From: a virus
Virus record (IMG/VR): IMGVR_UViG_3300033553_000807
Span: 1 to 57,632 of that record
Length of the DNA stretch: 57,632 bases
Direction: 5' to 3' (one strand)
Position 1 is the stretch's first letter. Every line of letters starts with the position of its first letter. Under the pieces are notes generated by a model. The model was not told where the DNA came from, did not search any database, and saw only the letters and a program-made list of their open reading frames with translations. The position numbers and the translations under genes are program-made. Shown here piece by piece: positions 26,501-52,924 of the stretch.

Positions 26501-26611
26501 TGGAGAAGAAAGGATTCGAACCTTCAACCTTCAATAAAATGATACTCTAACCGTTTGATACTTTCGCCATACAAGGACCATTGCTTTGACGTATCTTTGA
26601 GCTACTTCCCC
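26501..26611 (-). ncRNA. tRNA-like element, 111 nt, with expanded D arm
   Basis: Read leftward, the ends form a near-perfect tRNA acceptor (GGGGAAG with CTTCTCC, discriminator A). The T arm is GAAGG-TTCGAAT-CCTTT, the variable stretch is AGGTT, and GCTC...GAGT can close a D stem. Two things are wrong for a tRNA. About 42 nt (starting GATACGTC and ending GTATCAAA) are inserted in the D loop. The anticodon arm is only about 12 nt (TCA-TTTTAT-TGA) instead of 17. It therefore looks like a tRNA-like structure or decayed tRNA rather than a decoder. No CCA is encoded beyond the A. Confidence 0.45.
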
Positions 26612-30770: not shown

Positions 30771-30894
30771 AATTTATATTTTAATTTCTTTAGCCTTGCT
30801 ATCTGAACAGCTGTTTCAGAAATTCAATTGATGTTTTAAATTGTACATTTTTAAAACAAAAATTAAACTTTCACAAGGCTCTCTTTCTAGTTTG

Positions 30895-30967
30895 TAGCGA
30901 GAACAGGACTCGAACCTGTGACCTGTGGAATATGAGTCCACCGAGCTACCAACTGCTCTATCTCGCG
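30895..30967 (-). tRNA. tRNA with CAT anticodon (Met, or Ile if modified)
   Basis: A canonical 73-nt tRNA read leftward. Arms: acceptor CGCGAGA with TCTCGC; D arm GAGC-AGTTGGTA-GCTC; anticodon arm GTGGA-CTCATAT-TCCAC (anticodon CAT); variable AGGTC; T arm ACAGG-TTCGAGT-CCTGT; discriminator A. CCA is not encoded. With a 7-bp acceptor the 1:72 pair is C-T, a mismatch recalling but not equal to the C1-A72 of initiator tRNAs. The anticodon stem lacks the three G:C pairs of initiators, so elongator Met or Ile(CAU) is likelier. Confidence 0.9.
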
Positions 30968-35721: not shown

Positions 35722-35895
35722 CTATAAATTTTTTATCTGATTTTCAATTCTTGCTTTTTCCTCTTTTAATGCTCTAATTTTCTCCGGAGGCATTTTATCT
35801 TCTTCTAAAAAAATAAAGATTCCAAGCTCTTTTGCATAAGCAATTAGCCTTAAAACATCAGCTACTGTTTCTATTTCACTTACTGGCTGTTTCAT
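35722..35895 (-). CDS. Small helical protein (57 aa)
   Basis: 57 codons from MKQPVSEIETVADVLRLIAY to ENQIKNL, overlapping the DnaC-like stop as ATGA. Residues ~10-30 are hydrophobic-amphipathic and ~35-57 charged (PPEKIRALKEEKARIENQI). Short and unrecognised, but tight coupling to the helicase-loader gene supports it. Confidence 0.55.
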   Translation of the reverse strand: MKQPVSEIETVADVLRLIAYAKELGIFIFLEEDKMPPEKIRALKEEKARIENQIKNL

Positions 35896-36608
35896 AATTT
35901 TTTATTTTTATGTCTAAAACTTTTTCCTTCCCATTTTATGATATTAAACATTGCAGGCAAACGATCACCAATGCGCTCTTTATACCGTTCAGTAATTTCA
36001 GAAGGTGTTAAATTGGTTGTTAAAAATGTAATTGCTTCATTCCTATCACGCTCAAATAAAACCTCTCCTATCAACTCAAAACTTAGAAATGCCAGTTTTT
36101 CAAATCCTAAATCATCTATGTAAAGCTTGCCTCTGTAATAATTTTTTATATCAAAACTTGAATTGGTGTTTTTAATGGATTTCATATACTCATCAACAAA
36201 TGAACCTGTTGAAATTGAAGTGAACCAAAAGGAATTATCTTTGTATTTTAATGATATTTCCCTTCCCATTTCCTGCAGCACTTTAAATAAAAACGATTTG
36301 CCAACACCATAATCACCATAAATTAAAAGGCCTTTATTTAAACTAGCCTCATTTTTTATCAAATTGAATTGATTAAAATTTTCAAGTTTTAAAAAATAGC
36401 ATAAAACAGTGTAAATAATTTCCTTGTTTTGATTGTTAATAGTAAACTCATCATTTTTATTTTTTTTAACTTTTTCGAATTCCTCTCTACTTTTTGAAAT
36501 AAATAAATTCCAAATCATTTTTTTATTTAAGCTTTGCATTTTTTTGGGTTGTTTTTTTATAACAGTATTCCAGTTTTTAAAATGGTTTTCAATTTTAGGA
36601 TCAATCAT
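35892..36608 (-). CDS. DnaC/IstB-like helicase loader ATPase
   Basis: 238 residues. AAA+ ATPase: Walker A GDYGVGKS (98-105), Walker B LYIDDLG (162-168), sensor-like TFLTTNLTPSEI and arginine region ERIGDRL near the C-terminus. It would load host DnaB at the phage origin. It overlaps the initiator gene by 8 bp, giving the lambda O/P-like pair typical of temperate phages that use the host replisome. Confidence 0.9.
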   Translation of the reverse strand: MIDPKIENHFKNWNTVIKKQPKKMQSLNKKMIWNLFISKSREEFEKVKKNKNDEFTINNQNKEIIYTVLCYFLKLENFNQFNLIKNEASLNKGLLIYGDYGVGKSFLFKVLQEMGREISLKYKDNSFWFTSISTGSFVDEYMKSIKNTNSSFDIKNYYRGKLYIDDLGFEKLAFLSFELIGEVLFERDRNEAITFLTTNLTPSEITERYKERIGDRLPAMFNIIKWEGKSFRHKNKKL

Positions 36609-37353
36609 ATTGTTTCATTTTTTCCATTACTGTTTGATTCATTTCACTTACCGGAGTTGATTTTTTATTGGTAAAATTCTTGTCATTTTTTGCCCATGTT
36701 TCCAATCTTCTTTCTAAATCCCATGTTTTTTCGAGTTCCTGACGAAATTTTGTGCCTGACTTATTTGGCTCAGTCCAGTATTTATAAAAATCATTTAAAA
36801 ATTCTTTTCCATAAGTTTCTAAAAAAGGTGAGAGTGCGGAAGAAAATTTTAATTTTCTGGCATTATAATTTTCTTTTATTTCTTCTTCTTTTCTTTTCTT
36901 TTCTTTTCTTTGTGGGTTTACGGGTCCTTTACTTGGTAATAAACCTTGTTTACGTATCCCTAAACTTGTTAAAAGGGTGAGTAAACCATCTAAAGTGATA
37001 CATTTATTATTTCGCTTTTTATAAGCATCTTGCACACTATCAATAAAATCCTGGCACCAAATTATCTTATTATCATTCCAAAGAGTTGCGTCAAATTTCC
37101 CTAAATCAACCAAATCATTTATAATTGATTCCAGCACTTCTTTTGATACTTTGCATTTTGCTGATAAGTACATCATAGTACTTTGTTTTGATAGATTTAA
37201 GTAATGATAATCTGTTTTACCTAATTCTCTTAATATCTTTACAAATGTTGCAAATCCGTCATTCCCATAAGTTTCTTCCAGGTAAAACATTTTATTTCCT
37301 TCTTCACATAAAAAAGGGAAATAATCAACATTATTTCTTTCAGGTCTAGCCAT
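36601..37353 (-). CDS. Replication initiator (DUF4373/DnaD-like) with internal origin
   Basis: 250 residues. The N-terminal winged-helix domain starts ARPERNNVDYFPFLCEEGNK and has MFYLEETYGNDGFATFVKIL, the Lin1244/DUF4373-type opening. The middle (~120-165) is a low-complexity basic linker (NPQRKEKKRKEEEIKENYN), and the C-terminal ~80 residues are DnaD-like helical (LNDFYKYWTEPNKSGTKFRQ). The linker DNA carries origin-like repeats and purine tracts (36811-36986). A broken copy of that DNA lies at 52300-52475. Confidence 0.8.
   Translation of the reverse strand: MARPERNNVDYFPFLCEEGNKMFYLEETYGNDGFATFVKILRELGKTDYHYLNLSKQSTMMYLSAKCKVSKEVLESIINDLVDLGKFDATLWNDNKIIWCQDFIDSVQDAYKKRNNKCITLDGLLTLLTSLGIRKQGLLPSKGPVNPQRKEKKRKEEEIKENYNARKLKFSSALSPFLETYGKEFLNDFYKYWTEPNKSGTKFRQELEKTWDLERRLETWAKNDKNFTNKKSTPVSEMNQTVMEKMKQYD
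36811..36986 (-). other. Probable phage replication origin inside the initiator gene
   Basis: Within the initiator gene, read leftward, are GTTTACTC (36979-36986), CGTAAAC (36948-36954) and CCCGTAAACC (36915-36924), then a run of AAAAG repeats and an AT-rich stretch. Iterons followed by a one-strand purine tract inside an initiator gene is the lambda-type origin layout. The 176-bp segment is repeated, inverted, at 52300-52475. Confidence 0.55.
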
Positions 37354-44359: not shown

Positions 44360-45097
44360 TTAAAAAGGTGTTTTATTAAAATTTAAACTGGTTCCGTTGC
44401 TGGCCACAGTCACTGTTTTTCCTGTTGCACTTTCAACAGCTGCTTTAAATTCAATTTCGTTGCTGTTGCTATCACTTAAATGGATAAGCACAATGTTGTT
44501 TACTTTTGACAAGTCATTTGCTGACAAGGTGGTAAGGCAATTTTCCAAAGACATATGGCTTTTAAGAATTCTGTTTCTTAAAAATTCCTTTCCGCTTTCG
44601 GCTCCAAACTTTTTATCAATAATTTTTTTGGAGTAATTGGCTTCAATAATAATGTTGTGAATGTTATTAAAAGTATAGGCACAGTAAAAGGTGTCGGTTA
44701 AAAAAAGCACGTTACCGCATTCATTGTGCTTAATTATAAATCCAAAAGGTTCTGCAGCATCATGATGAACATCAAAAGGCATTACTGTAAAATTGCCAAT
44801 GGCAAAGGCTATTTTATTTTGCATCGAAATTGCACGATGATTTTCAATTTGTAATGCCTTAAATGTTCCGGCAGATGCGTACACGTTAATTCCTGATTTT
44901 ATCACTTCATTTATGCTCTTGGCGTGATCCATATGTTCGTGCGTTACAAGACATCCACAAACTTTTGAAACATTAAAATTTAAAGCTTGTTTAATGGATT
45001 GAACATTTACACCACACTCAATTATAAGAGCTTCATTCTCATTCTCAAGAATGTAACAATTACCTTTACTGCCTGTGCCTATTACTTTTAAATTCAT
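44360..45097 (-). CDS. MBL-fold metallo-hydrolase of the RecT module
   Basis: 245 residues. Metal-binding motif HEHMDH (53-58), downstream D134-type FLTDTFYC and a C-terminal IHLSDSN. Beta-lactamase-fold proteins are often encoded next to phage RecT and may act as the nuclease that produces ssDNA. It overlaps the recT gene by TAATG. No lambda-type exonuclease was found, so this is the best candidate. Confidence 0.85.
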   Translation of the reverse strand: MNLKVIGTGSKGNCYILENENEALIIECGVNVQSIKQALNFNVSKVCGCLVTHEHMDHAKSINEVIKSGINVYASAGTFKALQIENHRAISMQNKIAFAIGNFTVMPFDVHHDAAEPFGFIIKHNECGNVLFLTDTFYCAYTFNNIHNIIIEANYSKKIIDKKFGAESGKEFLRNRILKSHMSLENCLTTLSANDLSKVNNIVLIHLSDSNSNEIEFKAAVESATGKTVTVASNGTSLNFNKTPF

Positions 45098-45966
45098 TAG
45101 AATTGTGGTCCTGATGTTACTGGTTCAACAACTTCTTCGATATTTTCTTCAATTTCATTTTCAAGACTGTATTCAGTTTCGTCTAAAACAACTTCTGAAT
45201 CAATGTACAAAGTTTCTTTGTTGGCTTTTTGTTTTACCTCATTATCAACATAAGCAGCTGTAGTATCGGTAATTTCAATTTCTTCAAATAGATCACTGTC
45301 ATCAGAACTTCCAATCTTTGTTTTTAACAATCTTGAAACCACTGTTTTCTTAGCCATTTCATCAGGAAAATTTATATGTGCTGGTGAAGTTCCTTTTGCT
45401 TTTCCCATTGCCCAGGCACTTCTAATTTGAATCATATTCATTACCTCAGCATCTGTAGTTTCATCATTAAAAATGGCGATGGCATAAGCGCCTTTCACTT
45501 TTTGCGGATTGATGTTTTCAAATTTCTGCTCGTGCTTTGTAATGTTTTTCCTTCCGGTTTTAAAATCAAAACCATATTCGAAAACATCACCTTCATAAAT
45601 GGCAATGGCCACAATGTCTTTAATATTAGCAACTCTTTTACCAACTGCCATTGTTCCCATATAGCTGCGTTGCATCACCAGTTTATTGCCATAAACGATG
45701 TAATAACATTGTTTTTTTGAAGGTGATAAGCCTTGTAATACAGTATCCAATAATGCGTTCGCGATACTTTCTTTGCTACAAACTTCCAAAGCCGGACGTT
45801 TGTTCATATCAACAGTTTCCTGCAATATTAAAAAGGCGCTTCTTAAGGCGTTCTCGGCACTATAGCTTTCTGGAAGTTTTAAACCTCCCTCGGTTGTAAA
45901 CTGATCTACTTTGGTTAAGACTGAACCAACTGTGTCTTCTGTAAATTTTTTAATTTGTGTGCTCAT
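45097..45966 (-). CDS. recT: RecT single-strand annealing protein
   Basis: 289 residues. Recognisable RecT core: ALLDTVLQGLSPSKKQCYYI, QRSYMGTMAVGKRVANIKDI, FINPQKVKGAYAIAIF-like FENINPQKVKGAYAIAI, and the KKTVVSRLLKTKIG basic patch. Acidic C-terminal tail (EEIEENIEEVVEPV). It anneals complementary ssDNA during phage recombination and replication. Followed at once by the MBL-fold gene. Confidence 0.93.
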   Translation of the reverse strand: MSTQIKKFTEDTVGSVLTKVDQFTTEGGLKLPESYSAENALRSAFLILQETVDMNKRPALEVCSKESIANALLDTVLQGLSPSKKQCYYIVYGNKLVMQRSYMGTMAVGKRVANIKDIVAIAIYEGDVFEYGFDFKTGRKNITKHEQKFENINPQKVKGAYAIAIFNDETTDAEVMNMIQIRSAWAMGKAKGTSPAHINFPDEMAKKTVVSRLLKTKIGSSDDSDLFEEIEITDTTAAYVDNEVKQKANKETLYIDSEVVLDETEYSLENEIEENIEEVVEPVTSGPQF

Positions 45967-50970: not shown

Positions 50971-51030
50971 TATGAGTATTGTTTGGACCAGTCAATCAAA
51001 TTAAACATATTTAACCTTAAATACATTCTC

Positions 51031-51726
51031 ATGAAAAAGATTTTATTATTACTCGTAGCAATTTTAATTATTGGATGCTCCAAAGAAGATGATTCCACAA
51101 TAATTTTACCAGATGGAGAAAAAGTACTTGTTTCCAAAATAGAATATTACAATTCAGGCAATGTTTTAAACAGCACCACTACATTTACTTATAATTCAGA
51201 TGGATTTATATCAAAAAGCAACGGCATACACGTAAATGGATTTAAGGACGAAAATAATTATATATATGATAATAAAAATATTGTAAAAATTATAAGCACC
51301 GATAATGAGACTAATAAATCTTCCATTGATGAATTTACATATAGCGATAATGTATTGGTTTTAAAAACTGATACTGATAATAATGAAATAAATGTAATTT
51401 ATTTTGAATACAACTCTTCCGGCTATTTAAAAACGGTAAAATATTCAGATGAAACAATTAATTATACTTATGATTTAAATAATAATGTAATAAATAATGG
51501 TTCCGCAACTTATGAATATGATAATAAAAATGATTATTCAAGATTTTTAGCGCCTGATAACTTTTATAAAATTTTCAGAAAGAGCGATCATAATATTACT
51601 AAAGAAACCTATCCTAACGAAGTGCGCACTTACGAATATATTTATTTAAGCAATAATTACCCTTCTCAAATTACAGAAAAAATAAATGGAGAAGTTTATC
51701 AAATAAGTAAAATTTATTACAAATAA
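51031..51726 (+). CDS. Lipoprotein with YD-like repeats, lysogeny region
   Basis: 231 residues from the ATG at 51031. Signal peptide and lipobox: MKKILLLLVAILIIGC, with Cys16 lipidated, then SKEDDS, an acidic export-type context. The mature part has RHS/YD-like units: FTYNSDGFISKSNG, YIYDNKNIVKII, FEYNSSGYLKTVKYS, YTYDLNNNVINNGSATYEYD. It lies between two HTH genes on the rightward strand. A surface lipoprotein made by the lysogen could modify the cell surface or block superinfection. Confidence 0.7.
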   Translation: MKKILLLLVAILIIGCSKEDDSTIILPDGEKVLVSKIEYYNSGNVLNSTTTFTYNSDGFISKSNGIHVNGFKDENNYIYDNKNIVKIISTDNETNKSSIDEFTYSDNVLVLKTDTDNNEINVIYFEYNSSGYLKTVKYSDETINYTYDLNNNVINNGSATYEYDNKNDYSRFLAPDNFYKIFRKSDHNITKETYPNEVRTYEYIYLSNNYPSQITEKINGEVYQISKIYYK

Positions 51727-51727
51727 A

Positions 51728-51988
51728 ATGTACACTTCCGACAAAAGAATAATAAAGCTTATTGAACTTTTGATATTTCAAAGGAAGATTTCTTTTGTAA
51801 AAGACTTTTGTAATGAAATTGGCATTTTAGAGCAAAGCGTGTCAAAAATCAAAAAAGGCCTTAACCATTTTACGGTAATTCATATTGAAACTATTTGTAA
51901 AGTTTACAATGTAAATGCCAACTGGATATTTGGCATTGAGGACACTGTTTTTAACAGTGAAAATAGTATTAAAATTAAGAAAGTTTAA
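51728..51988 (+). CDS. XRE-type HTH protein (86 aa)
   Basis: 86 residues. Central HTH: RKISFVKDFCNEIGILEQSV, SKIKKGLNHFTVIHIETICK, then VYNVNANWIFGIED, the usual end of Bacteroidota Cro/CI domains. Without a C-terminal domain. It begins 1 bp after the lipoprotein stop, so co-transcribed. May be a second regulator of immunity. Confidence 0.75.
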   Translation: MYTSDKRIIKLIELLIFQRKISFVKDFCNEIGILEQSVSKIKKGLNHFTVIHIETICKVYNVNANWIFGIEDTVFNSENSIKIKKV

Positions 51989-51997
51989 TTGTAAAAA

Positions 51998-52137
51998 AAT
52001 AACCTAATAACCCAGCAAAATAACCTGAGCAAATAACCTGAGAAACCCACCTTTATAAAGAGAAAGAGAAACTAAAGAGAAATTAAATTAAAGAAGAAAA
52101 TAAATAAAAGAAAACAGCGCCAACTTTTAATTATTTT
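51998..52137 (+). repeat. Origin-like cassette 1 (AATAACCT iterons + purine tract)
   Basis: AATAACCT at 51998, 52019 and 52032 and AATAACCC at 52006, the last three starts 13 bp apart. A purine-rich run of GAAA/GAGA to ~52115 follows, then AACTTTTAATTATTTT (52122-52137). No intact gene. It resembles linker DNA of an initiator gene with iterons and purine strand bias. Confidence 0.45.
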
Positions 52138-52260
52138 AAAGAAATAAAAAAGCGAAACGAAAGCGAAAAAAAGCCAATAAGAGAAGATAAGATAATAGAA
52201 GATAATATTAAGAAAAAAGAAAATAAAGAAAGTGGAAGAACACTAACTTTTAATTATTTT
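52138..52260 (+). repeat. Origin-like cassette 2 (AAAGCGAAA repeats + purine tract)
   Basis: Two AGCGAAA repeats near 52153-52166, a purine-rich stretch to ~52235 and again AACTTTTAATTATTTT at 52245-52260, 123 bp (41 codons) after its copy in cassette 1. Both encode TFNYF in the same frame, so the DNA may be remnants of a coding linker. No start codon-led ORF. Confidence 0.4.
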
Positions 52261-52285
52261 TTAAAAAAAGTCAAAAAGTAAAAGT

Positions 52286-52475
52286 ACCCGTAAACCATAG
52301 TTTACTCACCCTTTTACCTAGTTTAGGGATACGTAAACAGGGTTTATTCCCAAGTAAAGGACCCGTAAACCCATAAAGAAAAGAAAAGAAAAGAAAAGAA
52401 GAGTAAATAAAAGAAAATTATAATGCCAGAAAATTAAAATTTTCTTCCACACTCTCACCTTTTTTAGAAACTTAT
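52286..52475 (+). repeat. Origin-like cassette 3: copy of the initiator-gene origin
   Basis: 52300-52475 matches the reverse strand of 36811-36986 over 176 bp with no gaps and about 8 substitutions (about 95% identical). It retains CGTAAAC and CCCGTAAACC, the AAAAG purine run and the AT-rich end, but a substitution makes an in-frame stop (GAG-TAA). An extra CCCGTAAACC lies at 52287-52296, paired with GTTTAC (52300-52305). A duplicated origin or an old recombinational relic. Confidence 0.7.
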
Positions 52476-52838
52476 TAATTTTTAGTTAAATGTAAAATAT
52501 ATGAAACAAAAAATTAAACGAACCTTCAAAATAGCTTTAAAAACATTTTTTAATACATTTTTATAGCTTTTTAACTAATTAACACGTTAGATTACAACTT
52601 AACATTTTAACTGCGCTTAAAAACGCTTAATTTGAAGTTAATTTTTAAAACTATAAAAAATAATATTTAGAATAAAATCATAAAAAAATTAATATCTAAA
52701 ATTACAAAAAAAAATAAAATTTTTAACCAGAAACGTACTCTAAAACATACCCAAAAACATACACTATTTACACCAAAAAGGAACTATTTTTTAGGCCATA
52801 AGCCCAATAAAATCATTATGAAATACATAGGATTGTAA
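52476..52838 (+). other. AT-rich prophage end with three integrase arm-type repeats
   Basis: No gene. The stretch is strongly AT-rich. AAACGTAC (52731-52738), AAACATAC (52743-52750) and AAACATAC (52755-52762) are exactly 12 bp apart, with the same 8-mer family and spacing as 27-46. They lie ~75-110 bp from the tRNA fragment, a usual distance for arm sites. Confidence 0.5.
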
Positions 52839-52880
52839 TTCATAACCCGGAGGTCTCCAGTTCAATTCTGGATCACGCTA
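52839..52880 (+). other. attR: 3' half of a CAT-anticodon tRNA
   Basis: From the anticodon loop TTCATAA: stem CCCGG, variable AGGTC, T arm TCCAG-TTCAATT-CTGGA, acceptor 3' strand TCACGCT and discriminator A. The five bases 5' of the loop (52834-52838) do not pair with CCCGG, so the 5' half is absent. This is the duplicated 3' end left when a phage integrates in a tRNA gene. The intact copy should be left of base 1. Confidence 0.8.
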
Positions 52881-52890
52881 CTTACAAATC

Positions 52891-52924
52891 AAGGACTTAG
52901 GTATTTAACTTAAGTCCTTTTTTA
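52891..52924 (+). terminator. Terminator of the host tRNA transcript
   Basis: 9-bp arms AAGGACTTA and TAAGTCCTT with an 11-nt loop and a T run. It lies 11 bp after the tRNA fragment. It is probably the original terminator of the tRNA gene, now stranded at the right junction. Confidence 0.75.

Follow-up and report, generated by a model that had tools for sequence, protein, structure and literature searches.

A block of 764 bp is inserted between the last lysogeny-side gene and the phage attachment site of a temperate phage of Bacteroidota, and it carries an array of three modules (c1, c2 and c3), the last of which is a non-coding copy of an origin-like segment that lies inside the phage's own replication initiator gene. 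The explanation that we favor, and consider probable with some reserve, is that the block is made of pieces of initiator-gene linkers brought there by recombination, and that the phage's initiator can probably bind c3.

The DNA analysed, referred to here as the window, is the whole of a 57,632-nucleotide stretch (IMG/VR virus record IMGVR_UViG_3300033553_000807), which holds most of one prophage. The integrase begins at base 1; because the record opens on the integrase ATG, attL lies outside the window. Replication genes occupy about 36-48 kb, lysogeny-side genes extend to 51988, the att core is at about 52848-52881, and the sequence beyond is apparently host DNA. The N-terminal domain of the initiator is of the Lin1244/DUF4373 type. 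The relevant features are as follows.

35892-36608, minus strand: DnaC-like helicase loader, overlapping the initiator stop
36601-37353, minus strand: replication initiator gene, parent of c3 (PF14297 Lin1244_N; PHROG replication initiation protein)
36811-37024, minus strand: origin-like segment within the initiator gene, source of c3
45097-45966: RecT annealing protein gene
51728-51988, plus strand: small HTH (Cro/CI-type) gene, last before att and left neighbor of the insert (weak Pfam HTH_26 and PHROG regulator matches; relatives in L034-L048)
51978-52741: block of 764 bp for which the collinear relative L155 has no counterpart (blastn)
51989-52150, plus strand: c1, with AATAACCT three times, a purine-rich tract and AACTTTTAATTATTTT; probable decayed initiator linker
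52145-52275, plus strand: c2, with a purine-rich tract and AACTTTTAATTATTTT; decayed initiator linker with one forward frame open
52261-52475, plus strand: c3, copied from initiator codons ~110-181 but non-coding; has iteron-like boxes, an AAAG tract and an AT-rich end
52287-52296, plus strand: extra CCCGTAAACC box in c3; the parent gene has no box at the aligned position
52321-52338, plus strand: ectopic copy of the palindromic box GTTTAGGGATACGTAAAC (found at two places in the window against an expectation of 0)
52476-52741: remainder of the insert, very AT-rich (17% GC)
52742-52881, plus strand: phage att arm and att core, 77% identical to L155 14063-14202

Elsewhere on the phage, a tRNA-Met is found by both ARAGORN and Rfam (30894-30967, minus strand), and a second, longer tRNA is reported by Rfam only (26501-26611, minus strand). 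An ORF of 247 aa (50983-51726) without a PHROG match lies amid the regulator genes of the lysogeny region, and its internal start resembles a lipoprotein signal, MKKILLLLVAILIIGCSKED.

The insertion is evident from comparison with L155 (MAG CROMO_A_120), which is about 80% identical to the window and collinear with it. By blastn, 51728-51977 pairs with L155 13800-14048 and 52742-52881 with L155 14063-14202; the 764 bp of the window correspond to only 14 bp in L155, and the insert is therefore lineage-specific. In other relatives att lies within about 160 bp of the HTH gene and the array is absent, and a core similar to that of the window comes after the HTH gene in L035, L037, L039 and L044. 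The original prediction correctly placed a non-coding stretch between the end of the HTH gene (51988) and the att core, but its extent of about 480 bp falls short of the inserted block; the expectation that close relatives would carry the array failed, as it is absent from L155 and from the others that share the HTH-att junction. Three modules do exist as described, of which only c3 is demonstrably origin-like. When 52476-52900 was searched by blastn, the insert part, 52476-52741, gave only weak matches, and scans of the array for tRNA and Rfam families found no RNA family.

The origin-like character of the parent segment is best appreciated from its box. The 18-bp palindrome GTTTAGGGATACGTAAAC occurs exactly twice in the window, once in the initiator gene and once in c3. 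The linker encodes S-L-G-x-R-K-(P/Q/L) in a set of 79 unique initiator genes, and the codons of the box are locked across amino-acid changes. The Leu codon is TTA in 55 of 55 cases, against about 49% elsewhere in the same genes, 37 of 46 Arg codons are CGT, compared with about 10% elsewhere, and the base following the Lys codon is C in 54 of 55 even though the residue varies (P, Q, L or T); many of these 79 sequences are related, and the counts do not represent independent events. An exact scan of IMG/VR for AGTTTAGGNRTNCGTAAAC returned 26 stretches, 24 of them with the site in an initiator linker. The box is under constraint at the DNA level beyond coding need, which fits a putative intragenic origin. 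Both the parent segment and c3 combine repeats conserved at the DNA level, as judged by codon locking and by the near-restriction of the box to initiator linkers, with an adjacent AT-rich region consisting of an A-rich AAAG tract followed by AT-rich sequence. This organization resembles that of the lambdoid ori, where the middle of gene O contains repeats and then an AT-rich region, and where iteron number can vary, adding residues to the protein (PMC7466680). In contrast to the lambdoid case, the initiator of the window is of an unrelated type (DUF4373/Lin1244 N-domain), its segment has an 18-bp palindromic box and a purine AAAG tract, and an additional non-coding copy of the segment lies beside attP.

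The linker is also the place where members of this initiator family differ in architecture. Among the initiators of L009-L123, a single conserved DUF4373 N-domain carries many different C-terminal domains, attached at the origin-bearing linker, and the same C-domain is also found behind unrelated N-domains (L025-L033). These architectures suggest that the origin segment is a joint for module exchange within the family. In L116, repeats of the initiator linker (AAGGCGGAACATTCCGGAGTGAAGGCGGA) are found again at L116:8644-8691, about 900 bp upstream of that gene.

The relationship of c3 to the initiator gene is close, as originally predicted: 52261-52475 aligns with 37024-36811 of the minus strand at 89.8% identity over 215 bp, and its last 179 bp are 95% identical to the gene. 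It is non-coding because two in-frame stops replace one Gln and one Glu codon. When the differences were polarized with L049, six changes fell on the c3 branch and two on the gene branch, with one assigned to neither, indicating that c3 is a recent copy of this lineage's own gene that is free of coding constraint. The alignment shows that c3 retains every TAAAC/GTTTA box of the parent as well as its AAAG tract and AT-rich end, and for this reason the phage's initiator could probably bind it. There is also a gain: CCCGTAAACC occurs twice in c3 (52287 and 52362) and once in the initiator gene, and none of 200000 shuffles of 52261-52302 contained such a box. In 399 genomes from a single host family, the matches to c3 are initiator genes, and those to c1 and c2 are only Lys/Glu-rich low-complexity sites.

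The first two modules are of a different nature. They have AACTTTTAATTATTTT in common, as had been noticed earlier, within a 55-bp repeat of 76% identity, and TFNYF does occur twice in one forward frame. Their supposed iterons, AATAACCT and AAAGCGAAA, are not clearly above chance, however, since an 8-mer occurring three times in 51989-52060 arises in 104 of 2000 dinucleotide shuffles and a 9-mer occurring twice in 52141-52190 arises in 792 of 2000. Both c1 and c2 are without the TAAAC/GTTTA boxes characteristic of the origin-like part of c3 and of the gene, and neither has above-chance iterons in common with an initiator gene. As they have no recognizable origin box and no close match to a specific initiator, the proposal of an array collecting origins from three types of phage is not borne out.

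The proposed tie of the modules to initiator linkers holds for c3, is supported for c2 and is suggestive for c1. In 1.75 Mb of DNA from related phages c2 has 16 matches, 10 of them within initiator linkers. The best of these, to the linker of L102 (76% over 71 columns, 50.9 bits), exceeds the scores of all 200 dinucleotide shuffles, and the matches lie wholly or mostly in the frame that is open across c2. Similarity beyond composition, together with its consistency with the coding frame, identifies c2 as a linker remnant. For c1, 4 of 13 weak matches in the same DNA are in linkers, the shuffle rank is 13 of 200 and the frame is partly consistent, which is suggestive of a linker origin by sequence likeness. 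The c2 peptide has no match among annotated phages. An exact scan of IMG/VR for triple AATAACCT, as a route to a parent of c1, returned 49 stretches, mostly tandem repeats, in which no DUF4373 initiator was recognized. A common start of c1, c2 and c3 at the YKKRN codon was also considered and set aside, as a DNA profile of the joint built from 73 sequences gave no convincing match in the array.

Non-coding copies of the linker are rare. A search of 45 related phage records for copies of their own linkers and an all-against-all linker search of 3.6 Mb found them, besides the window, only in L015/L016, which is one of the 45 records (L016); the other matches outside ORFs are on the minus strand (palindromic) or are further views of initiator genes. 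The L016 copy (L016:4443-4690; also L015:6305-6374) is located right after the initiator stop and before the helicase loader, and has five 17-nt iterons spaced by 22/22/21/11 nt and a long AAAG tract, a tract that the adjoining initiator gene has lost. Decay of a tandem duplication of the entire gene was considered as its source and set aside, as the matches lie almost only over the linker region. It is like c3 in being an independent ectopic copy of the origin segment of the same initiator subfamily with more boxes than the gene, and differs in being a single cassette that directly follows the initiator stop instead of lying at attP. Judged from its sequence, this copy shows that an origin segment can exist outside its gene and suggests that it can function there.

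How the block came about and what it does can be viewed in several ways. In the explanation we favor, this phage lineage acquired a 764-bp block at the junction of the HTH gene and attP, and the recognizable content of the block is initiator-gene pieces trimmed to the linker, which encodes a low-complexity hinge while carrying origin-like DNA. Once the lineage had separated from that of L155, the third module was copied from its own initiator gene, and c1 and c2 would be older, decayed linker pieces without a recognizable origin. Recombination at the linker is the likely source, because the linker is a family-wide module joint with a constant N-domain and many C-domains and because the phage encodes RecT; participation of RecT itself is suggested by gene content. 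The original prediction had offered decayed linker fragments left by recombination as its alternative, and this is the best fit for c1 and c2 and is compatible with c3. Against this explanation, the ancestry of c1 is weak and the parent initiators of c1 and c2 did not turn up in the searches. It is also conceivable, on a tentative footing, that the entire block is non-functional debris in which no module binds or replicates, as the stops in c3, the decay and near-chance repeats of c1 and c2, and the absence from relatives would have it. Yet c3 has kept its boxes and gained one, which hints at selection over mere debris, and recognizable content limited to linkers exceeds what is expected of random debris; both points also count against the favored explanation.

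Stronger roles for the block find less credit. That c3 works as a second origin, with initiator binding the boxes, the AT-rich part opening and replication starting also beside attP, is rather doubtful. Retention of all parent boxes with one added, of the AAAG tract and of the AT-rich end would fit it, as would the L015/L016 copy, whose iterons and AAAG tract, the latter lost from its gene, suggest that an origin can live outside the gene; but the gene's own origin segment is intact and a second is not needed, the copy is young (5% divergence) so that boxes could survive by chance, and no other relative has a linker copy at attP. We regard as unlikely a broader version, in which selection maintains the insert as a movable origin cassette. 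The origin of these initiators would then be copied from the gene into non-coding DNA, here and independently in L016, would gain boxes there and would act as a spare origin or a sink for initiator, and c1 and c2 would be what is left of earlier cassettes of this kind, derived from other initiator alleles. A decoy function, whereby c1-c3 would titrate initiators of different types from superinfecting phages and so protect the lysogen, is very improbable. In lactococcal phage-encoded resistance (Per), a phage origin on a plasmid interferes with phage replication; Per is likened to the array by description, and the two differ in host, phage and copy number. Plasmids carrying the lambda origin prevent lambda from replicating, and do so even when the origin is a variant to which O binds more weakly (PMC4488673), and a lambda oop-ori fragment yields an inhibition phenotype (PMC3349717). 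These ectopic origin copies are similar to c3 in lying outside their gene and potentially binding initiator. However, they are engineered multicopy plasmids (20-40 copies per cell; PMC4488673) and the inhibition phenotype requires oop transcription too (PMC3349717), whereas the array is one natural copy in the phage itself. Moreover, c1 and c2 have no origin box, and a decoy array kept by selection would need to be present across related prophages, among which this array is not conserved. A single-copy prophage array with one recognizable set of boxes would be a poor decoy, and a multi-phage decoy array is unlikely.

These observations point to a DNA-level origin box in a widespread, little-studied family of Bacteroidota phage initiators, and show that two phage lineages have a copy of this origin segment outside the gene. 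Should these copies be functional, the origin would be separated from its initiator, and origin exchange, spare origins and natural decoys would become directly testable in phages other than lambda.
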